Assembly: GCA_963678705.1 (NCBI GenBank)
Contig: OY783208.1
Coordinates: 2,046,001 to 2,110,000, forward strand
DNA from: Panorpa germanica
Taxonomy: Eukaryota; Arthropoda; Insecta; Mecoptera; Panorpidae
Direction: 5' to 3'
DNA: 64,000 nucleotides
Below the pieces are notes generated by a model. That model ran no database searches. It saw nothing but the letters and a program-made list of their open reading frames with translations, and was not told the origin of the DNA. Shown here one piece after another: positions 10,176 through 59,372 of this stretch (position 1 is its first letter; the number at the start of each line of letters is the position of its first letter). A program made the translations under genes and the position numbers.

Positions 10176-10893
10176 GTGACCTTCGCAAGCGACGACTGTC
10201 TTTTGTGTGTTAATTGAATTTCATTTCAAATTTTAATTCCATTTTTAAATTGAAATATTTAACTCGTTCTATATAAATTTTACATATTACAAGAAATCAT
10301 TTTTCATATAAACTGACTAAAAAAATATATTTCATTATGTGACCAACTTTTTTTCAAAATTTGGGATTTTTTTTTTCGATTCATAAAGTAGTTACCAAAG
10401 TTAATCCGCATACAAAATTTCAACTTTCTAGAACAATTTTTACTCTCGGCAAATACTGCCCCCGTGCCCCCAAATAAAATTTTTAAATTTTGAATAAATT
10501 TTTATTAATAATATACTTAATTATTCTAGAATCCAGAATATGAATTTTCTCCAAAGTTCCCTACCGGGCCCCCGAATTTTTTCAACACCCTTTTTCAATT
10601 TTTGAATTTCTAATTTTTGAGAAATGTCAGCATTGAATACCTTAATACACATACAAAATTTCAACTTTCTATCTTTTACGAATTAAAAGTAATACAGCAA
10701 AAAAGGGCTCACTTTTTTTCCAGTTTTTCCAAAATTACGGGTTTCCAGGAAATTCAGGGAAAAATCCGGGGACGTCAAAAGTCTCAGAATTTTTTTCTCT
10801 ACGAAATAGGAAATTTTCAAAAACATTGACGTAGCCGTTTCCGCGCTGCCATACAAAATTCACTACCAAACATATAAGAATATAAGATCGTAA
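10176..10893 (-). mobile_element. Helitron H2-type element, 3' end eroded
   Basis: It shares with 20412-21118 and 31686-32564 a long non-coding body (ACTGCCCCCGTGCCCCCAAA, CTACCGGGCCCCCGAATTT, TTTTCCAAAATTACGGGTTT, GCTGCCATACAAAATTC). The hairpin-type end survives only as CGCAAGCGACGACTGTC at about 10182, and no CTAG terminus is left. The body is non-coding; it is a non-autonomous element. Confidence 0.7.
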
Positions 10894-11862: not shown

Positions 11863-12455
11863 GTGTCTATACAAACCTAATTGAACTAATTAAAACAATT
11901 TCAAAGTTTCATCAAATCTAAAAAACACAAAATATAATTAAATTTAATTAAGCAGATTAATTTCAAAAAACACATGCTGGAAATTTAGTAAACGAATGGC
12001 TCTAAAATAGGAGATGGACTAATCTATGTTTATTTACAGCGTTGTGTATTTTTTTACACGCTTTTATAGTATTTTAGTCGCCAGCTGTATTTAGATATTG
12101 ATATGAATCTTTTTTAAGATACTATGGTTATATTTTTACTGTTTTTGACGCGATAAATTATAAAAAATGCATTTGTTTCAATAAATGTTGACAATAGTGC
12201 ACCTACAACGCTAGCAGCGCCTCGGTGGCGGTTAATTCAATTAATTAATTAATAAAGAAACCAAAAATATCTCCCAAACTATGTCCCAAACTTTTTGTTA
12301 CATTTGCGCACAATTTATTTAACATCGCCCTATTTTCGATCCTTAATCCTATCACCGACGACCTCCTACTATGTTGGCAGTTTTTGTGGTGTCGTAGCCC
12401 CATATATATGAGCCACACCGCTGCCTAATAAGTTTCTGATTATATTTATGCCTTA
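11863..12455. other. Unique AT-rich DNA
   Basis: No gene is seen. A short island around 12190-12240 (CGCTAGCAGCGCCTCGGTGG) is GC-richer. The final TA (12454-12455) is the target of the next element. Confidence 0.4.
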
Positions 12456-12922
12456 GAGCATATATATATATGGAGCGAGAATGCTGGACCTGAAAGTGTG
12501 CGAGAGAGAAAGGTATACGTTCCTATTTGTTCTCTATGCGCATGCGTCGAAAGTGACAGTTGTCAAGTCAGAACTGTCTAGATATAATACGTGACAGTTG
12601 TTAAATATGACATTATATTGATGTAGAATAATGTAGATATGTATAAATATAAATAAACTATATATAACTATAACTAAAAACGTGAGTTCTGTTAACTCCA
12701 AATATCAACTGTGTTGGCCGTTACCCCAACAGCAATATAATTTCTTTACATATTTAATATTTATTATATCTTAATAGAATATTAATATTTATTATATCTA
12801 TACAGCTGTCACTATCGACGCATGCGCATAGAGAACAAATAGCAACATATACCTTTCTCTCTCGCACACATTCTGAACACACTTTTAATCTATAGGAAAC
12901 ATAGGCTATTCACACTCTGCTC
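12456..12922. mobile_element. R-C element, TA-flanked, near complete
   Basis: Bounded by TA at 12454-12455 and 12923-12924; the left end is GAGCATATATATATGGAG. Long diverged terminal inverted repeats contain GTGCGAGAGAGAAAGGTATA and TTCTCTATGCGCATGCGTCG, with the complements on the right. 467 bp, non-coding, consistent with a mariner/Tc1-type MITE. Confidence 0.8.
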
Positions 12923-12926
12923 TAAG

Positions 12927-14639: not shown

Positions 14640-15612
14640 ATTGACCTGTTCCTATTGACAAGTGAAAACGATAATACAGTCGTTGCTAGAAAACTAAAGA
14701 GTTATAAATCAGGATTTGCTATATATGAACAAATACATTTATTATTTGATAAATTTAAATGAAATAACAAAGTTAGCTCTTATACTGGAGAACAATTAGC
14801 AATATTAAAAGCACTGGAAATTAATGAAAATATGAACAATAATAAAATTATAATAATAACGGATTCTTTAAGTGTTTTAAAAAATTTAAATTCTAATGAT
14901 AACAAATCAAATAATGATATTTTGACACGCAAAATTAAGGGGGTGTATTTCAATTTAATAAATATGAATAATACCATAAAATTTATGCGGATACCGGGAC
15001 ATTGTGGAATAAGAGGAAACGAAATTGCGGATGAATTGGCAAAGGAATCAATAAATTTGGAAATTGAGATGAAAGTGAAATTCCCTTCATATGAAATTTT
15101 TAATATAATCAAAAAATTAAACTTCAATTTGAGAAACCAAGATTTCATTAACAAAAGTCAGTTAAAAGGAAGAGATTATTATATGTTACATCCAAATTTA
15201 AGCAAGAAAAGATGGTTTAGAAATGAGCTTCGCAAAATTATATCAACTATAATCAGAATCAAAAGTAATGATTGTAAAACTCACCTGTCCAGCTCACCTG
15301 TACAAAATTAATATTAAATCCGACGATAGATGTCAATGTGGTGAAGAAGGAACTTTGGATCATATTATATTTGAATGCATAAATTATAGTTTAGAAAGAT
15401 CTAAATTCAATAGTGAAATATTAGATGTGATTAAAACTTTTCCTGTTAATACTAAATTTTTGTTAAGTGATTCAAAATTAAGTAGTGAATTATTTAAATA
15501 TTTAGAAATTTCTAAAATTGAATTATAAATTATGAAAGATGTATAAAAAATGTTTGATGGTGGCTATGACGAAAGAAAGTCAAGGCAAATAAGTAAATAA
15601 ATATAAGAAAAT
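14640..15612 (+). mobile_element. LINE1 copy b, best-preserved 3' end
   Basis: A 5'-truncated non-LTR retrotransposon keeping the RNase H domain, the downstream region and the 3' end. The 3' terminus is 'GTGGCTATGACGAA..AAGTCAAGGCAAATAAG' followed by a TAAATAAATA-type tail. It abuts an R-A fragment starting at 15613, so it probably inserted into R-A, whose other half I cannot find on the left. Confidence 0.85.
14715..15528 (+). pseudogene. LINE1 RNase H and zinc-knuckle C-terminus
   Basis: The reading passes through SGFAIYE, TGEQLAILKALE (second acidic residue), ITDSLSVLKNL (third) and GHCGIRGNEIADELAKES (final acid and His). This is the order of Jockey/I-type RNase H, which degrades the RNA strand during target-primed reverse transcription. 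A stop interrupts the frame near 14760. The clean frame is 14832-15311 (159 residues); it ends at CKTHLSSSPVQN. The true continuation PAHLYKINIKSDDRCQCG...HIIFEC (a CXCX7HX4C knuckle) is in another frame, to 15528. The switch coincides with a CACCTGT direct repeat at 15284-15302 shared by all four LINE1 copies. Confidence 0.85.
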
Positions 15613-18716: not shown

Positions 18717-18766
18717 TGACCACACTTTTAGGTCCAGCATTCTCTCTCTCTATATATATATGCTCT
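18717..18766 (+). mobile_element. R-C terminal scrap
   Basis: CACACTTTTAGGTCCAGCAT, CT run, AT run, then TGCTCTAAG: one R-C end only. Confidence 0.65.
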
Positions 18767-19917: not shown

Positions 19918-21162
19918 CTTTTCAATTGAAATTAATGTTAATAAATGTGTATTGGCGTGTCTGTTTTATTAAACATCTAAATGTTGACGGAGATATAGCA
20001 ATTAAAAGTTTGAATTGTAGTTTTAGCGCTAGAGATGTCGGCCATATTTGTATGACGTGAAATGTATTTTAACGTCAGTTATTTGTTGAGTAGGTCAGTG
20101 CTGTGGTAATGTTTTGTAGCTGTTGGTAGTCAAATAATCAAGTCAAGTCAAAGAATAATAAGTTTTTATTTTATTTAACCCTGCTAAGGCAGACATAATA
20201 TTGAAATTTGATTGTTCCTTGAAATAGCTGTAAATAATATTTGATATTTTGATATATAAATACATATAGCAGAGATTTATTAGCTGTAAGGTTGGTAACC
20301 TGTAAACTTGGCATGAATGTGTATCTCTTTTACGCTCTGTTGTATAAAAGAGATATTTATTAACAAATAATTGGACATTTGAGGTTCTAGTAACCAATTC
20401 TATCAATATATAGTGCTCTAGAGTTTACCCCCGTCTTTTTGGCGTGTATGATTTGAATCCAATAAAATAATACGTAATTACATTTCATATTTAATTCTAT
20501 TTTTAAATTGAAATAATAAACTCGCACAATAATAAAAGAATTTTTCAATTTATCAAAATAAAAAATATTTTCAATTTATGCGTTATTTGATTCGTAAATA
20601 AGTTACCAAGGTTATATAAGGCAAATATAAGGCCTATATACAAAATTTCAACTTTCTGGCACAATTTTTACTCTCTGCAAATACTGCTCTCTTGCCCCCA
20701 AATAAAATTTAGAAATTTTGAATTTTTTTTATTAATAATATACTTAATTATTCTAGAATCCAGAATATGAACTTTCTCCAAAGTTCCCTACCGGGCCCCC
20801 GAATTTCTTCAACGCCCCCTTTTTCAATTTTTGAATTTCTAATTTTTGAGATATGTCAGCATTGAATACACTTAATACACATGCAAAATTTCAACACTCT
20901 ATTTTTTTAACGAATTAAAAGTAATATAGCAAAAAAGGGATCACTTTTTTCCAGTTTTTCCAAAATTACGGGTTTCTAGGAAATTCAGGGAAAAATTCGG
21001 GGACGCCAAAAGTCTTAGAATTTTTTTCTCTACGAAATAGGCAATTTTCAAAAACATTGACGGAGCCGTTTTCGCGCTGCCATACAAAATTCACTACGAA
21101 ACATATAAGATCATAAGATAGTACACTTTTATAGAAATTAAGACATAGGACACAAGCCCATT
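19918..21162 (+). mobile_element. R-A element split by a Helitron
   Basis: R-A runs from 19918 to about 20411 (…ATCAATATATAGT), is interrupted by the H2-type element to 21118, and resumes at 21119 with TAGTACACTTTTATAG through the terminal complement of AATGGGCTTGTGTCC at 21162. The first terminus is missing. Confidence 0.8.
20412..21118 (-). mobile_element. Helitron H2-type element inside R-A
   Basis: Read on the minus strand it starts TCTTATGATCTTATATG right after an A (T at 21119 on the plus strand) and ends in ...GGGGGTAAACTCTAG near 20417, matching the Helitron rule 5' TC, 3' CTAG. About 5-7 extra bases lie between CTAG and the R-A sequence. No target duplication, as expected. 707 bp, non-coding. 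Confidence 0.75.
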
Positions 21163-24665: not shown

Positions 24666-25290
24666 TTAGACATTTTCTTTTGCTCTGCAAGTGCAAACAA
24701 CGGTTTGTTAACAGCGATGGCATTTTGCAAGGAGTCACTAAGAGGTCAAAACACTTGTTTAAAATAATAAAAACTTTCTTTTCATTTTATGATAGAATAA
24801 ATACCGGGAGGACAAGTGTAATCTCATTATTGTAGAACCCCATTTCATCCCCTGCCCTTGTAACTACGTCCGGAGAGAAATCCCGTCGACGGAAGGACAC
24901 CCTCAGTAGTATTTAGCCCTTACTCTTTATTGTCTCAACAATACCAATTCAGCAATTCATCCCTTATTGTTGTGTTTTGTTCAGCTACCCTTACAGCCCG
25001 ACTGGCTCATTGTGTTCTGCCACATTAACCTGTTGAGATACAAAACCGTAAAGGGGTGCTTTGGGGGTTTAAAGAAGCCAGTGACGTGCTTTAAAAAGCA
25101 AAATATACAGGTTTTTATCCTATATTATAATGTTCCAGGTGTATATTTATATGCTTGTTTGTTGAAATTCGTATGGTAGAATAAAAATGGCTCCAGCGAT
25201 GTTTGTGAAGATTTGCTATTTTGTAAAAAAATTTTTTTTCCAAATTTTCCCTGGAAATCCGTAATTTTGGAAAAACTGGAATAGATTTTT
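24666..25290. other. Unique DNA, no gene
   Basis: A GC-richer patch at 24835-24905 (CCCGTCGACGGAAGGACACC). The terminal AATTTTCCCTGGAAATCCGT (25235-25280) resembles the inner part of Helitron H2, so a small H2 scrap may be there. Confidence 0.4.
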
Positions 25291-25852
25291 TTTAATTTAT
25301 ATAAATATTTACTTATTTGCCTTGACTTTTATTCGTCATAGCCACCATCTAACATTTTTTATACATCTTTTATAATTTATAATTCTATTTTACAAATTTC
25401 TAAATATTTCAATAATTCACTAATTAATTTTGAATCACTTAACAAAAATTTAGTATTAACAGTAAAAGTTTGAATCACATCTAATATTTCACTATTGAAT
25501 TTAGATCTTTCTAAACTATAATTTATGCATTCAAATATAATATGATCCAAAGTTCCTTCTTCACCACATTGACATCTATCGTCAGATTTATTATTAATTT
25601 TGTACAGGTGAGCTGGACAGGTGAGTTTTACAATGATTACTTTTGATTCTGATTATAGTTGATATAATTTTGCGGGGCTCATATCTGAACCATCTCTTCT
25701 TACTTAAATTTGGATGTAACAAATAATAATCTCTTCCTTTTAACTGACTTTTGTTAATGAAATCTTGGTTTCTCAAATTGAAGTTTAATTTTTTGATTAT
25801 ATTAAAAATTTCATATGAAGGTAATTTCACTTTCATCACATTTGGTTTTGTG
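25291..25852 (-). mobile_element. LINE1 copy c, 5'-truncated
   Basis: A minus-strand copy with its 3' tail at 25291-25315 and 5' break at about 25835-25852. The readable frame (25594-25872) covers LPSYEIFNIIKKLNFNLRNQ to CKTHLSSSPVQN. The zinc knuckle is in another frame across the shared CACCTGT repeat. The truncation point (GATGAAAGTGAAATTACC) is nearly the same as in copy d at 31.0 kb. Confidence 0.85.
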
Positions 25853-26998: not shown

Positions 26999-27500
26999 TC
27001 CTATAGATTAAAAGTGTGTCCAAAATGTGCGCGAGAGAGAAAGGTATATGTTCTTATTTGTTCTCTATGCGCATGCGTCGAAAGTGACAGCTGTCTAGAT
27101 ATAATAAATATAATATTCTATTAAGATATAATAAATATTAAATATGTAAAGAAATTATATTTCTTTAGTTGGTACAAAGCTCGTATGTCGGTAAAACAGT
27201 GACCGTTCAGTGAAAACATATAGTCATAAACGCCATAGATGATATTTTGAGTGGAGGACTCAGGTTTTTAGTTGTATTTATATATAGTTTATTTATATTT
27301 ATACATATCTACATTATTCTACATCAATATAATGTCATATTTAACAACTGTCACGTATTATATCTAGACAGCTCTGTCTTGACAACTGACACTTTCGACG
27401 CATGCGCATAGAGAACAAATAGGAACATATACCTTTCTCTCTCGCACACATTTTGGACACACTTTCAGGTCCAGCATTCTCTCTCCATATATATATGCTC
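26999..27500. mobile_element. R-C element, longer internal form
   Basis: It begins within the left end (CCTATAGATTAAAAGTGTGT) and ends ATATATATGCTC followed by TA at 27501-27502. Its centre holds AACGCCATAGATGATAT..., inverted to 17940-18404. Confidence 0.8.
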
Positions 27501-31007: not shown

Positions 31008-31555
31008 AGAAATTGAGATGAAAGTGAAATTACCTTCATATGAAATTTTTAATATAATCAAAAAATTAAACTTCAATTTGAGAAACCAAGATTTCATTAA
31101 CAAAAGTCAGTTAAAAGGAAGAGATTATTATATGTTACATCCAAATTTAAGTAAGAAGAGATGGTTTAGAAATGAGCCCCGCAAAATTATATCAACTATA
31201 ATCAGAATCAAAAGTAATCATTGTAAAACTCACCTGTCCAGCTCACCTGTACAAAATTAATATTAAATCCGACAATAGATGTCAATGTGGTGAAGAAGGA
31301 ACTTTGGGATCATATTATATTTGAATGCATAAATTATAGTTTAGAAAGATCTAAATTCAATAGTGAAATATTAGATGTGATTAAAACTTTTCCTGTTAAT
31401 ATTAAATTTTTGTTAAGTGATTCAAAATTAATTAGTGAATTATTTAAATATTTAGAAATTTGTAAAATTAAATTATAAATTATAAAAGATGTATAAAAAA
31501 TGTTTGATGGTGGCTATGACGAATAAAAGTCAATGCAAATTAGTAAATAAATTTA
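31008..31555 (+). mobile_element. LINE1 copy d, 5'-truncated
   Basis: Starts GAAATTGAGATGAAAGTG, with the first frame 31018-31260 (80 residues, to CKTHLSSSPVQN). The knuckle region is in another frame and is broken once more by an added G in 'AACTTTGGGATC', which removes the Cys part of the knuckle from the final frame (31287-31478). Ends GTGGCTATGACGAATAAAAG plus A/T tail. It adjoins the R-C fragment at 31570. Confidence 0.85.
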
Positions 31556-31569
31556 AAAAAAATAAAAAA

Positions 31570-31632
31570 TATCTCTTTCGCACACATTCTGGACACACTT
31601 TTATTCTATAGGAACCATAGGCTATTCATTCT

Positions 31633-31685
<53 letters not shown>
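31570..31685 (+). mobile_element. R-C element, left piece, ending in an expanded AT run
   Basis: ATCTCTTTCGCACACATTCT ... TATTCATTCTCC then (AT)n at about 31636-31685. The matching end of this R-C (AT run, GCATATATGCTC, TA) is found at 35197-35258, so R-C was opened inside its AT run by the 3.5-kb Helitron pair. Confidence 0.75.
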
Positions 31686-31686
<1 letters not shown>

Positions 31687-32564
31687 TAGCTTTTACCCCC
31701 GTCGCAAGCGACGTCTGTCTTTTGTGTGTGGCTTGAACTTCATGTAAAAATTTAAATTCCACTTGAGTTTACCACCGTCGCAAAGCGATGACTTTTTGGC
31801 GTGTATGATTTGAATTCAATAAAATAATTCGTAATTAAATTTCATATTTAACTGTTCTATTTTTAAATTGAAATAATAAATAAACTCGCGCACATATACA
31901 CACATATAAATTGACTAAAAAAATATTATTTTTTTATCAAAATAAAAAATATTTTCAATTTATGCGTTATTTGACCAACTTTTTTTCAAAATTTGGGATT
32001 TTTTTTTTCGATTCGTAAATAAGTTACCAAGATTAGCCTATATACAAAATTTCAACTTTCTGGCACAATTTTTACTCTCGGCAAATACTGCCCCCGTGCC
32101 CCCAAATAAAATTTTAAAATTTTGAATTTTTTTTTATTAATAATATACTTAATTATTCTAGAATCCAGAATTTGAACTTTCTCCAAAGTTCCCTACCGGG
32201 CCCTCGAATTTCTTTAACCCCCCCTTTTTCAATTTTTGAATTTCTAATTTTTGAGAAATGTGAGCATTAAGTACCTTAATACACATACAAAATTTCAACT
32301 TTCTATCTTATACTAATTAAAAGTAATACAGCAAAAAAGGGATCACTTTTTTTCCAGTTTTTCCAAAATTACGGGTTTCCAGGAAATTCAGGGAAAAATC
32401 CGGGGACGCCAAAAGTCTTAGAATTTTTTTCTCTACGAAATAGGAAATTTTTAAAAACTTCCCTGGAGCCGTTTTCGCGCTGCCATACAAAATTCAGTAC
32501 CAAACATATAAGATCATAAGAATATAAGAATAGATTCAAACAGTTGGAACATTATAATATAGGA
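31686..32564 (-). mobile_element. Helitron H2 (tandem partner)
   Basis: On the minus strand it starts TCCTATATTATAATGTTCC (GA at 32563-32564) and ends ...CGTCGCTTGCGACGGGGGTAAAAGCTAG-type sequence, i.e. a 6-bp-stem hairpin CGTCGC-TT-GCGACG about 10 bases before CTAG (31686-31689), followed by T. 879 bp, non-coding, so dependent on an autonomous Helitron for Rep/helicase. A second hairpin end (CCGTCGCAAAGCGATGAC) lies inside at about 31765-31790. Confidence 0.8.
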
Positions 32565-35193
32565 CTAGCGCTTCGCCCCGTCGCAAAGCGACGTGTATCT
32601 AATATTTGTGAATAAATAAATTTATTTGCTAAATTGAAAATAATGCAAAATATTATTTTTAAGTAATTTTCGTTATAATATATCCTTTTTTAAACTTTTT
32701 TTTTTTATTTTGTTATAATTCTTTCATTTACAGTAATAAAGCACTGTATTGACCAGTCTCCAGTGCCCCCGCCCATAAGCCGCAATCATGACCTTTTGGC
32801 TCCATGCTCTCTTACATTTCCGAACTTTTAATTTGATTCCTCTAAACTTCCGCCATGGAGCGCCTTTTTCCTTCAGCACTCTGTATCGCTTCTTTCCTGA
32901 GCATCGTCGGTCCTTAGAGTACATTCACAGCGCACCCGCTTTAGCACTATAATTAAATAATCCTTCGTTTCCTCCTCTCTGTGTAAAAATTAATATTTAC
33001 CCTAATAAAGCGCTGTATTGAGAAATGTCCACTGCCCCGCTCCGTAATACTAATCATCACCTCTTGGCTCCATGCTCTGTATCGTTCTCGCACTTTCAAT
33101 TGTATTCCTCTGCACCTCTGCCACAATGCGCCCACTTGCAACACCACAGCCAACCTGAGAATCATCGCACATAACGGCACTGTCCTATCGCCCCTTTTAC
33201 CGCAATCATTAAATAATCTTGCGCTTTTACCTCCTGCGTACTAATACTCTTAACAATTAGTTTTCATAATTAATACTTTACTGGCAACCTACACACTAAA
33301 TTTCATCCTTAGAAGTATATTATTTTTTAATAATTATTCGATAAGATAAATGCTTGATAAAATTAATTTTCACTCATTTCAATGTAAACCTACTAATTAC
33401 ATCAATTCATTTATGTTTTTAAGAAAGCCTAGCGGTTCGCTCCTAATCATCTCATCTCTAGCCCTTATCCTTCCCGTTATTGTACTTTCAATTTAATCCC
33501 CTGAACCGCCGCCCACATTTCCAGCACCAAAGCATATATTCTACAACACGGTTATCTTCCAGAGCCATTATAATCTATCGCTACTTCTTCTAAGACCACC
33601 GTTACTTGGTGTCCTGAACCCCGGCGCCACCCTCTCCTCCAATCAGGCACTACCAATTCAATATTACAGCAATTCATTTACATAATTAAAACTGCACTGT
33701 AATCTTACGTTCTAATTTTTGTATTTATATTTACGATATAATATTGTCCTCCCCATTAATTCCCGCTCCTGAAATAAAATTGTCAAATTTTAGGCATAGC
33801 AATCTATTTTGCTCGTAACAACTCTCACTACCTTTATCTACCCCTACTTTTATAAATGATCGAAATTTAAAATTGAGCTCTTTGGCAAAGCCTTTCTCGC
33901 CCCCACTTCCCCAATTTCACGCCGCTACTAAGGTTAAACTTATTTTTCGCAAATATGCACATGCGTAGTTTCTATTTTTTTAATTTGATATTTGGGGCTG
34001 TTAACTATTTCCCCCCTATACCTCTCACTCCTGTTCGATTTCACAGCACAACGAACGCACCAAAAATCAATTCAATTCTACTATTGAATGTAATTTGACT
34101 ATCTAACTTATAGAGAACTATTGTGCTTCTATTTAATATTCTACATGCAAAATATCATCGTTGTACCTCTATTTTGTTCTTATACTCGGTTTATCACTCC
34201 CCACTCTAGTGTTACACTTAAGAAAAGGATTTTTTTTTTATATTTTCGTTATTAATTTGTCAATCTTTATCTGCATACTAAATTTTAGCTTTGTATTTAT
34301 ATTTTAGCATTATTACCCCCCCACATACCTGCGCTACTGAACAAGTTTGTCAAATTTTAACACAGGGATCTATTTTATTTATATCTAAGAACATATAATC
34401 TAAACTATAGCCTTTTATTTCTATATATTTCATATTTCTGGTTTTTGGCCCACAGCGCCCGCCGCCTCTGGAAAGTTGCAGTTTTCTATAGTTTGTCTTT
34501 AATTACACTCTATATAGAGCCCACGTTCCAAATATCAACGTTCTAGCTCTGTTGCAACATTGCCTCCAAAAAATCACGCCGCTACTGAATTAATATTTTG
34601 GTAATCCAATTATTGGCAACATTCGCAATTAGTGTCTCAATACATGCCCTAAGTTTTAATACTACTTTTTCAATATTTCTGGCTTTTACTAACTCAACTC
34701 CCGCCGCCACTGGAAATTTGGGGCTCTTTATTTTTTTTCATTAATAACACTCTAGAGCGAGCCTACATATTAAATTTGAACGTCCTAACTCTATTCTAAC
34801 ATTGCCCCCGGAAATTCGCGCCGCTACTGAACTTAAATTTTAAATGTCCAACTATTGGCAAATGTGCACAATTATGATCTCAATACACATACCAAATTTC
34901 AGTTTCCTATCTTTTCTAGTTCGTCAGATATTTGCAAAAGTATTTTTTCAAATTTTCCAGTTTTTCCAGAATAATTTTTTCCAGGGAAATTCAGGGAAAA
35001 ATTCAGGGACGTAGAAAGTCTTAGAAATTCGTCCTTTACATAATATCAAAATTTAAAAAACTTTGTAGGCGCCGTTTAGAAGATACCATACAGATTTTGT
35101 TACCGGAAATATATATATATATATATATAAATATCTATGAGTTCTTATGAGTTTTCCATGTTAAATTGGAACATTACGAACATTATAATAGTA

Positions 35194-35196
<3 letters not shown>
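32565..35196 (-). mobile_element. Helitron H3, 2.6 kb, fused head to tail to H2
   Basis: Minus-strand start TCTTACTATTATAATGTTCG (GA at 35195-35196, preceded by A); end ...CGTCGCTTTGCGACGGGGC, GAAGCG, CTAG at 32565-32568, with a perfect CGTCGC-TTT-GCGACG hairpin. Its 5' 250 bp (34920-35196) is homologous to the 5' part of H2. The interior 32.7-34.9 kb is pyrimidine-rich on the plus strand and made of decayed repeats of about 250 bp (ACATTGCCCCCGGAAATTCG-like at 34800, ACATTGCCTCC at 34555, CACGCCGCTACT at about 33915). The frames on it (e.g. 32724-32924, 32953-33180) look non-coding. No Rep or helicase motif seen. Confidence 0.75.
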
Positions 35197-35240
<44 letters not shown>

Positions 35241-35258
35241 TATATGCTCTAAGGTTCG
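35197..35258 (+). mobile_element. R-C element, right piece after Helitron insertion
   Basis: AT run, GCATATATGCTC, then TAAGG. Completes the R-C at 31570-31685. Confidence 0.7.
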
Positions 35259-35774
35259 AATAGTGGTGCTGCAAATGAAATTGTTGCACAAGACGATGGA
35301 ATTACACTTCTAAAACTAGGTCAATTGGTGGTGAATCACCCCGTTACATTAGCCGTCCTTATTCTTTCAATATTTACCCTTATCATAACAAAATTCGATG
35401 ATAAATAACGGGCAATCTCCCTATTAAATCGTTGGTCAACAACCATCGTTGGCTGACGTCCATCCGTTGTCCGTTCTCCAGTGTCCAACGTTGTTGTTCA
35501 TAACGGGCCTTCGTTTATTATTTACGACCTTTCGACCTTCTGTGTACACAGCACTCACCTCTGTACCTGGCGCTTTATCGGCGTCTGGAGGGCGTCGCCA
35601 TCGAGTAGTGACGGTTTTAATTGCCAGAGGCTTCGCTGTAGTGAAGGAGGCGCTGACAAACTGAATTACCGGATTCCTGTAAAGTCAATTTTTCTATTAA
35701 CTTATTACAATTTAACTTTGCATATACAAGACTTCGACTTTGCTTAAATTAAGCAAAACTATATGATATTCTAA
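35259..35774. other. Unique, GC-richer DNA, coding status open
   Basis: 35440-35665 is single copy with good base balance. Two overlapping plus frames exist (35449-35664, 71 residues from TTG, and 35481-35747, 88 residues from ATG). Neither resembles a known protein and no donor or acceptor stands out. Confidence 0.35.
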
Positions 35775-35878
35775 CCTCCAAAATGTGACAATCTGTCAAA
35801 ACGCAATAGGATTTATTTTTAAAAGAAGTTCAATGTCAGTTTGTCAAAAATAAAGAAATAAAAACAATTTCTATTACT
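35775..35878 (+). mobile_element. R-D element, cut by R-A
   Basis: Starts CCTCCAAAATGTGACAATCT and reads into the body to TTTCTATTACTAA, where the R-A terminus begins. The remaining R-D half is not found on the far side. Confidence 0.8.
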
Positions 35879-36862
35879 AATGGGCTTGTGTCCTATGTCT
35901 TAACTTCTACAAAAGTGTACTACATATTGATAAAGCGATATATTCTGACAACTTTGCAGGTTACCAACCTTACAGCTCATATATATCAAATATTATTTAC
36001 AGATATTTCGAGGAACAATAAAGTTTCAATATTATATCTGTAGTAACAGGGTTAAATAAAATGAAAACTTATTATTCTTTGCGTACTAGATACACAGGAC
36101 TACCAACAGCTACAAAGCATTACCACAGCACTGACCGAATCAACAAATAACTGACCTATCCCACTACATGTTACGTCATAAATTTAGCCGACCATTTCTA
36201 GCGCTAAAACTACAATGGGATTGTGTCCTCATTTTTTAGTGGTCGATTTTTCAATATAGTATTGGCGTGTCTATTTTATTAAATATCTAAATGCTGACGG
36301 AGATATAGCAATTAAAAGTTTGAATTGTAGTTTCAGCGCTCAAAATGGTCAGCCATATTTGTATGACGTGAAATGCATTTTAACGTCAGTTATTTGTTGA
36401 GTAGGTCAGTGCTGTGGTAATGTTTTGTAGCTGTTGGTAGTCGAATAATCAAGTCAAGTCAAAGAATAATAAGTTTTTATTTTATTTAACCCTGTTACGG
36501 CAGACATAATATTGAATTTGATTGTTCCTTGAAATAGCTGTAAATAATATTTGATATTTTGATATATAAATACATATAGCAGAGATTTATGAGCTGTAAG
36601 GTTGGTAGCGGTTGTGATATCACATGCATTTGGAATGTGTACAACGTTGAATCCCTTTAATAATTAAAGAGACAAAATAACTTTTTTAATTGTTAATATC
36701 TCTTAACATATAAGGAATTATTAACAAATAATTGAACATTTAAGGTTCTAGTAACCCACTTTATCAATATATAGTACACTTTTATAGAAATTAAGACATA
36801 GGACACAAACCCATTCTTATTTTTAATTGCTATATCTCCGTCAACATTTAGATATTTAATAA
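35879..36862 (-). mobile_element. R-A element, outer copy, interrupted by another R-A
   Basis: The outer copy occupies 35879-36213 and 36816-36862. Across the gap the sequence joins as GCGCTAAAACTACAA / TTTTTAATTGCTATATC, as in uninterrupted copies. It sits in the R-D of 35775. Confidence 0.8.
36214..36815 (+). mobile_element. R-A element, inner copy, complete with both ends
   Basis: 602 bp from AATGGGATTGTGTCCTCA to the complement of AATGGGTTTGTGTCCTATG. It gives the R-A structure: terminal repeats of about 16 bp, non-coding body. No clear target duplication can be read, so the superfamily is open. Confidence 0.85.
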
Positions 36863-57145: not shown

Positions 57146-58204
57146 ACCATTATTTGTAATCGCTATTATAGAGTTCAAAAGTAAACTAACGCGGCATTTG
57201 TATTAGCATTACTTTGAATACAGAATGTTTTATTTTCCTATATTAAAACAGCAATATAAGACACTAATTGGCAAATTTATAAATTATGTAATAATATTTA
57301 AGTTACCTAATACTTCTACAGTCCATTATCATTTCAATATTTGCTTAAACGTTCTGATTAGCTATGTAATTTAAAGTTCGATTCAATGCAGAAATAATTT
57401 TGACTCCACTAGTCCGCCGAATCGACTGCGTACTTTACCGACGTCTGAAATCATGCGTCATACGTCAGTAGAATACATTATTTTGTAATAATTACTATCT
57501 TTATTTATTATAAAGTACTGCATTTAATATATTTAATTATATTTCCTTCTATTAACACTAAAACTTAGTAAGTGGGAATAGGGCCTAAGCCATGGTTCAC
57601 AAACTCAATTTAAATACAAAAACTTTACTAGTCAAAAAATAATAAAAAATATTCTTATAAAAATTAAAATTATATATCTGTCTCGTTTGTTCTAATAGAA
57701 CGTATACATAAGTACATCTCTTTTCTACTACAACCAAGATATGCACCGATGGCGGCTCCAGGGAGTCTCACGACCAGACCATTCCATTTCATAGGTATTA
57801 ATATTTAACATTAAAATTATATAAGAAAATAACAGTGTCTTTATTATTTTAATGAATTTTTTTGTAATAACATTTGATGATTTATAAAATTTAAGAAACA
57901 GCTAAACTTAAATTAAATTTTGTGTAATTAATTTAGTTAATTCAATTTTTAATGATTTTCAAAATTGATTATAACCGCGGAAAGCTATTCAAATAGTTAT
58001 TTAAGGATTAAATGAAATAAGTCGATTAAAAATATACAAATGTAGCAACTAGTTTGGGACAGGATTTTGTGTACGTATAAAATGATTTACCCTGAAAAGA
58101 TATTCCTTTTTGAATCTAATTTAACAGGAGAAATATTATAATAAGCTTTTCTGCATAATATCATGTTTTACAGTTTTTAATAAACAAAAATGAAAAACAC
58201 CTCC
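57146..58204. other. AT-rich DNA with R-N repeat copy 2
   Basis: 57225-57430 is the inverted partner of 14058-14265 (AAACAGCAATATAAGACACT, 'AGTCCGCCGAATCGACTGCG'). The rest is unique and shows no gene. Confidence 0.5.
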
Positions 58205-59021
58205 GCGGCCTGTCATGTACATGCAAAGAGTTAAACATAGGAAACAAAAAGACTATGCACTTGAAGTATTGAGGCGTTTGCTTACTGTTGACCAAAAACG
58301 AGAACGTGTTGATGATTCTGAGCAGTGTTTGGCCATGTTAAAACGTAACAAACCGGAATTTTTGCGTCGATATGTGACAATGGATGAAACATGGATCCAT
58401 CACTTCACTCCGGAATCAAAACGATCGTCATCAGAGTGGACAGCAACTGGTGAACCTCGTCCAAAGCGCCCGAAAGCACAACAATCGGCTGGAAAGGTTA
58501 TGGCCTCGGTATTTTGGGATGTGCGTGGTGTAATATTCATCGACTATCTTGAGAAAGGAAATACCATTAACAGTGAATATTATATAGCGTTATTGGAGCG
58601 TTTGAATGCCGAAATTGCAAAGAAACAAACGCATATGGCAAAGAAATTTTTTTTGTTTCATCAAGACAACGCACCGTGTCACAAGTCAATCAAAACAATG
58701 GCAAAACTACATGAATTGAACTTCGAATTGCTCCCACATCCACCGTATTCGCCAGATTTGGCTCCAAGCGTCTACTGCCTGTTCGCAGACCTGAAAAAAA
58801 TGCTCGCCGGTAAGAAATTTTGCACGAATGAAGAGGTTATCGCTGAAACTGAGGCCTATTTTGAGGCAAAAGATAAATCGTTCTACGAAAGTGGTATTGA
58901 AATGTTAGAGCGGCGCTGGAATGATTGCGTTGCTCTTGATGGAGATTACGTTGATGAATAAAGCTAATTTTGAACCAAAAAAACTGTGTTTTCTTTGTTA
59001 GGCCCGGGACTTTTCAGCCCA
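58205..59021 (+). mobile_element. Mariner M2, 5'-truncated, 3' end intact
   Basis: Transposase core and C-terminus, then 60 bp to the 3' inverted repeat TTAGGCCCGGGACTTTTCAG, CCCA, and TA at 59022-59023. The 5' terminal repeat and the whole DNA-binding domain are absent. Sister fragment at 45190-45400. Confidence 0.9.
58215..58961 (+). pseudogene. Mariner M2 transposase catalytic domain, third Asp lost
   Basis: 248 open codons. True homology begins near LLTVDQKRERVDDSEQCLA (residue 22); the first 20 residues run through a frameshifted copy of the linker. Catalytic motifs: TMDETWIHHFTPES (Asp57), LFHQDNAPCH (Asp151) and PPYSPDLAPSVYCLF, where the expected Asp of SDY is Val186. Spacing 151 to 186 leaves 34 residues, the mariner DD34D pattern, so Val186 sits exactly at the third metal-binding position. 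WVPRLL linker and N-terminal HTH missing. Ends GIEMLERRWNDCVALDGDYV. Long open frame but certainly inactive for strand transfer. Confidence 0.92.
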
Positions 59022-59079: not shown

Positions 59080-59372
59080 AGAATTTACGACGACTGTCTT
59101 CTGTGTGTGAATTGAATTTCATTTCAAATTTTAATTCCATTTATAAATTAAAATATTTACCTCGTTCTATATAAATTTTACATATATTATTCGTTGTTTG
59201 GCCAACTTTTTTTTTTAAATCATTGATTTTCTTTTTCGATTCGTAAATAAGTTACCAAGGTTAGCCCATGTACAAAATTTCAACTTTGTAGCCCAATTTC
59301 TACTCTCGGTAAAAACTGCCCCCAAATGCCTCCAAATAAAATTTAGAATTTTTTTTTTATTAATAGCATGTC
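59080..59372 (-). mobile_element. Helitron H2 3'-half fragment
   Basis: TTTACGACGACTGTCTTCTG to CAAATAAAATTTAGAATT. Same order as 10182-10490; CTAG end and 5' half are missing. Confidence 0.7.

Follow-up and report, generated by a model that had tools for sequence, protein, structure and literature searches.

A zero-base junction between two different Helitrons inside the AT run of a MITE terminus in Panorpa germanica

In a 64,000-nucleotide stretch of the genome of the mecopteran insect Panorpa germanica (GenBank assembly GCA_963678705.1, contig OY783208.1, positions 2,046,001 to 2,110,000; hereafter "the window", numbered from its first base), two Helitrons, H3 and H2, lie head to tail on the minus strand within the AT run of a miniature inverted-repeat transposable element (MITE) termed R-C. 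H3 (2632 bp; 32565-35196) opens with TC at 35195-35196, carries a terminal hairpin and closes with CTAG at 32565-32568. H2 (879 bp; 31686-32564) opens with TC at 32563-32564 and closes with CTAG at 31686-31689, and together the two span 35196 to 31686. At the junction (32563-32568), the CTAG of H3 directly adjoins the GA at 32563-32564, which is the TC of H2 on the minus strand, with no base between the elements. With a slash marking each boundary, the minus strand reads ...TATATA/TCTTACTATTATAATGTTCG (H3)...GGGGCGAAGCGCTAG/TCCTATATTATAATGTTCC (H2)...GGGGGTAAAAGCTAG/TATATA. The outer flanks of the pair are A/TC at 35197/35196 and CTAG/T at 31686/31685, those of an A/T insertion without target duplication; the AT phase is unbroken once the flanks are joined, although a short duplication could hide in the AT repeat. 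This structure and its A/T flanks can be read directly from the bases. They confirm the original prediction, which had placed two different Helitrons of these lengths and coordinates in perfect abutment, bounded by A and T, inside the AT run of an R-C element.

Both elements have the 5' TC and 3' CTRR of a canonical Helitron. The 3' hairpin of H3 has a 6-bp stem, the end of which lies 14 nt from the element end (z -2.91; 2 of 200 shuffles equally good), and that of H2 a perfect 5-bp stem (z -1.28), which 21 of 200 shuffles match. A six-frame Pfam scan of H3 for a RepHel protein returned no family above the cut-off, and H3 is therefore classed as non-autonomous; its best sub-threshold hit (E 0.18) was taken as noise. 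H2 is likewise listed as a non-autonomous Helitron. H2 has relatives at 10217-10887 and 20435-21118 that are 85-87% identical to it, and no close relative of H3 was found within the 64-kb window. Alignment of the two elements pairs H2 55-334 with H3 82-362 at 70% identity over 289 bp; further similarity is confined to the last 36 bp (81%), about 21 bp near the 5' end (86%) and other weak, short pieces. H2 and H3 are thus different elements, a dissimilarity that the alignment displays directly. The description of the pair as "size variants" of 0.88 and 2.63 kb was correct as to the lengths and loose as to "variants", because in this alignment the greater part of H3 is without a match in H2. On its own (minus) strand, H3 is also strongly asymmetric in composition (GC skew +0.32, AT skew +0.12), and it contains diverged internal direct repeats (310-543 with 553-784, and 2074-2202 with 2342-2471; 72-75% identical).

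The 12-mer ATTATAATGTTC of the 5' ends has three exact matches in the window (25124 on the plus strand, 32547 and 35178 on the minus strand), each at a Helitron 5' end; allowing at most one mismatch gives 6 sites against 1.94 expected, a count that 1 of 100 shuffles reaches. The plus-strand match belongs to a 3'-truncated Helitron (25118-25281) whose first 20 bases are identical to those of H2. This copy is directly preceded by an A and not by H3 or any other Helitron, which provides independent support for the 5' boundary of H2. At the other end, a search of the window for the final 24 bases of H3 and of H2 gave just three sites with at most 6 mismatches (32565, 31762 and 31686), all on the minus strand. 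The bare hexamer CTAGTC occurs at 11 sites on both strands, and is therefore uninformative alone. A 30-mer spanning the junction is unique in the window even when 8 mismatches are allowed.

The site that received the pair is a single terminus of an R-C MITE. Its left part (31572-31685, plus strand), identified by repeat homology, ends in a 51-bp AT run (31635-31685), and its right part (35197-35253, plus strand) comprises a 41-bp AT run (35197-35237), GCATATAT and the terminal GCTCTAAG (35246-35253). The original prediction had put the two R-C halves at 31570-31685 and 35197-35258; both are present, with homology beginning at 31572 and the terminal octamer ending at 35253. Bases 31572-31634 are 88-93% identical to three other copies (6909, 18330 and 12856), and shorter matches at 27040 (minus) and 27436 (plus) are 90-93% identical. 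The right half is thin, consisting of the AT run and GCTCTAAG only, but at other R-C-type termini, too, the AT run is followed by this octamer. As a MITE-like repeat, R-C has inverted arms, and its termini take the form CTTAGAGC(AT)n... and ...(AT)nGCTCTAAG. Its copy at 12452-12926 runs from CTTAGAGC to GCTCTAAG and has terminal inverted repeats, with arms at 12492-12563 and 12802-12873. At the target, the inner part of R-C is cut off at the tail of a repeat resembling a long interspersed nuclear element (LINE-like; about 550 bp, 31009-31561), which recurs at 15060-15611, at 25280-25843 and, in part, at 1-282, with about 96-98% identity. One LINE-like copy abuts the truncated Helitron at 25281 and another the R-C MITE terminus at 31572; the copy at 15060 overlaps an open reading frame with an RNase H domain (PF00075).

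Rejoining the flanks of the Helitron pair yields one unbroken AT run of 92 bp. The runs at other R-C-type termini measure 10 bp (6972), 12 bp (12460), 0 bp (12919), 8 bp (18395, a variant end), 11 bp (18751), 4 bp (18957) and 10 bp (27487), those at 18751 and 18957 having been identified from the terminal motif only. The TA repeats that Helitron excision leaves as footprints (Li and Dooner, as related in PMC10095026) might be a source of so long a run, but slippage would be simpler. The run may also have served as an insertion hot spot.

H2 itself has two successive 3' ends, which belong to different subtypes. The internal one, RTS-a (31762-31785, minus strand; H2 780-803), ends in GGTAAACTCAAG at 31762 and is one of the three places that resemble the final 24 bases of H2 and H3; the remaining two are the actual ends of H2 and H3. 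The second, RTS-b (31686-31761, minus strand; H2 804-879), starts at what is the T of an A/T in two related copies and ends in CTAG. Ahead of RTS-a, H2 is matched by related copies at 20421 (minus) and 50536 (plus); these lack part of the hairpin and keep GTAAACTC, past which they diverge both from H2 and from one another. Where H2 has CTCAAG, the copy at 20421 reads on as CTCTAG; the CTAG of RTS-a is degenerate. RTS-a alone has no significant fold (78 of 200 shuffles equally good), as a decayed end might. RTS-b, for its part, matches the tails of copies at 10180-10244 (83%) and 59088-59142 (82%), and the match begins at the T of A/T (AAAAA/TGG and ATAAA/TGG), the bases before that T agreeing by only an A or two.

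These comparisons suggest that an a-type Helitron entered an internal A/T of a b-type one and that a later transposition ran through the degenerate a-type end as far as the b-type end. Nested insertion followed by end bypass would leave both sides of the RTS-a/RTS-b join as they are found. The b-type element lacks its upstream half here, so the nesting would have happened elsewhere; nesting at the present site was rejected, as H3 and the AT run, not a b-type half, lie upstream. The a- and b-type ends are related to each other, and unequal recombination between them could also have made the join. Read as the product of nesting and bypass, H2 is a compact case of two successive 3' ends, the outcome expected from end bypass after insertion of one Helitron into another.

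Helitrons insert between A and T, and the inserted element starts with T. The H3-H2 junction probably arose by two such canonical insertions in series, H2 first and then H3 at the A/T of H2's 5' edge. H2 would have entered between an A and a T of the AT run in the R-C terminus. When H2 alone is joined to the flanks by script, its minus-strand 5' boundary reads TATATA/TCCTAT, an A/T, and its 3' boundary AGCTAG/TATATA, a G/T; the A/T is there to be read directly with H3 omitted. Since an inserted Helitron brings a T of its own next to the host A, the 5' edge of H2 (A/TC) would again have been an A/T target, and the 3' edge (CTAG/T) would have offered none. H3, a related non-autonomous Helitron, would then have landed at this A/T, oriented like H2, to produce A-[H3 TC...CTAG]-[H2 TC...CTAG]-T, with the former A/TC of H2 converted into CTAG/TC. 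One further canonical insertion thus yields exactly the zero-base junction observed.

We infer that H2 came first and that the second insertion took place here and not in a donor copy. The H2-type 5' end at 25118, which follows an A and has no H3, supports serial insertion. For the bat Helitron Helraiser, all but 46 of 1,751 insertions fell at AT, the exceptions being most prominently TT, AC and AA, and insertion favours DNA that is AT-rich within about 20 bp (PMC4778049), as it is around the H2-H3 site. The scarcity of non-AT targets and the preference for AT-rich DNA make H2 first, H3 second the likelier order. Other points weigh against it. Under a uniform model over the A/T sites of the window, the probability that one later insertion hits the exact site and orientation is about 7e-5, and about 0.01 if confined to the AT run, figures that take no account of the AT-rich preference and make the event unlikely by chance in one window. 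Genome-wide, roughly 0.2 to 27 exact pairs would be expected for an assumed genome of 0.1-1 Gb with 2-7 copies per 64 kb; the pair is thus notable within one window, yet expected somewhere in a Helitron-rich genome. In addition, at a comparable pair in maize, lines with a single element carry the 5' element; taken at face value, this points to the opposite order, and a later excision would be needed to reconcile it with H2 first (PMC2267711).

A different history, unlikely in our judgement, is that the pair formed elsewhere through insertion at A/TC and moved here as one 3.5-kb unit, starting at the TC of H3, bypassing its CTAG and stopping at the CTAG of H2. End bypass has been demonstrated for Helraiser (PMC4778049), H2 itself seems bypass-derived with its two 3' ends, and a single A/T pair flanks the whole unit. 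Against such a move, the 3' hairpin and CTAG of H3 are intact and should favour a stop there, and the junction 30-mer lacks a second site, though the 64-kb window is a small sample.

The original prediction had seen in the junction the head-to-tail joining expected of rolling-circle transposition, and had called such pairs rarely seen so cleanly. Joining of H3 and H2 in one transposition, as a concatemer or by a template switch between two circles, is very improbable. Rolling-circle multimers repeat one element, and the neighbours in such a tandem should be near-identical, whereas H3 and H2 share only 70% identity over 289 bp, their ends and short pieces and differ over most of their length. 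Concatenation of one element therefore does not explain the join; two different elements would need an extra step, for which the Helitron literature examined offered no precedent. A perfect CTAG/TC junction is in itself no evidence for rolling-circle concatenation, since the A/T rule gives the same sequence at the 5' edge of the first element.

There is similarly little to recommend the reverse order, in which H3 came first and H2 entered at the G/T of its 3' edge. This is one of two orders proposed in maize, some lines of which carry the left (5') element alone (PMC2267711), but it requires a non-AT target of the kind behind the 46 Helraiser exceptions, with GT not among the top three (PMC4778049). 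Finally, an assembly misjoin across the long AT runs is hard to credit: the 51- and 41-bp runs that flank the insert are far longer than those at other R-C-type termini, but the AT phase and both R-C halves fit one element, and the CTAG/TC junction sits in sequence without an AT run.

Serial canonical insertion also raises a more general idea, which we put forward tentatively and regard as less likely than not. Helitron stacks might grow in one direction only, since each insertion rebuilds the 5' A/T target and destroys the 3' one; new elements would be added upstream, and an occasional bypass would fuse neighbours. If so, this locus would display two steps of such a ratchet, an older insertion and bypass in the double 3' end of H2 and a newer insertion in H3/H2. 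Were the rule to hold genome-wide, abutting pairs would be arranged head to tail, with the younger element on the 5' side.

Elsewhere in the window, a 255-residue open frame at 58194-58961 (plus strand) encodes mariner-type transposase domains (PF01359, E 3.7e-23), and a dense cluster of short repeats at 35745-36500 has many copies in the window on both strands. Exact-pattern scans of viral contigs with 3'-end, 5'-end, H2-core and R-C-core patterns gave no match, nor did a scan of prokaryote genomes with the H2-core pattern. The junction pattern occurred in four viral contigs, within a nearly identical stretch; no H2 or H3 match better than E 0.007 was present among the matches listed, and the occurrences were taken as chance.

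Helitrons reportedly disrupt microsatellites in Lepidoptera, where Coates and colleagues are said to have described them in 2010; the placement of a Helitron within a microsatellite is shared with the present site, but the repeat there is (GAAA)n rather than (AT)n. The closest counterpart of the junction is at the maize r1 locus, where two dissimilar adjacent Helitrons, No.1 and No.2, meet in such a way that the CTAG of one runs straight into the TC of the other (Du et al, 2008; PMC2267711). That arrangement is called "head-to-head" in the abstract and "head-to-tail" in the body of the paper. The authors concluded that the insertions were independent and offered two possible orders, discussing both the G/T junction and the target formed by the host A and TC; in one order, the second element inserted "canonically, at the AT dinucleotide created by the host A and the T at the 5' end" (PMC2267711). 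Pritham and Feschotte, as cited there, had argued that independent insertions should leave an intervening A (PMC2267711). Insertion at an A/T that straddles the element boundary would escape this argument. The maize elements differ from ours in carrying genes or gene fragments and in having been typed in several lines, whereas no coding content was found in H3.

In bats, copies of Helibat abut another Helitron, and 3'-end bypass by Helraiser creates new termini comparable to the double 3' end of H2; that work concerns a bat family and includes cell-culture experiments (Grabundzija et al, 2016; PMC4778049). In fungi, self-insertion has been proposed for tandems and multi-terminus elements, including the FoHeli composites of Fusarium and a triple tandem in Metarhizium (PMC5148889). 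Those elements are non-canonical and Helitron2-like, however, with multiple 5' rather than 3' termini, and the Fusarium tandem has a 2-bp gap (PMC5148889). With abutting or tandem Helitrons reported in all three groups (PMC2267711, PMC4778049, PMC5148889), the rarity originally claimed for so clean a join was overstated, and the H3-H2 pair is a further example of an arrangement already described in maize, bats and fungi.
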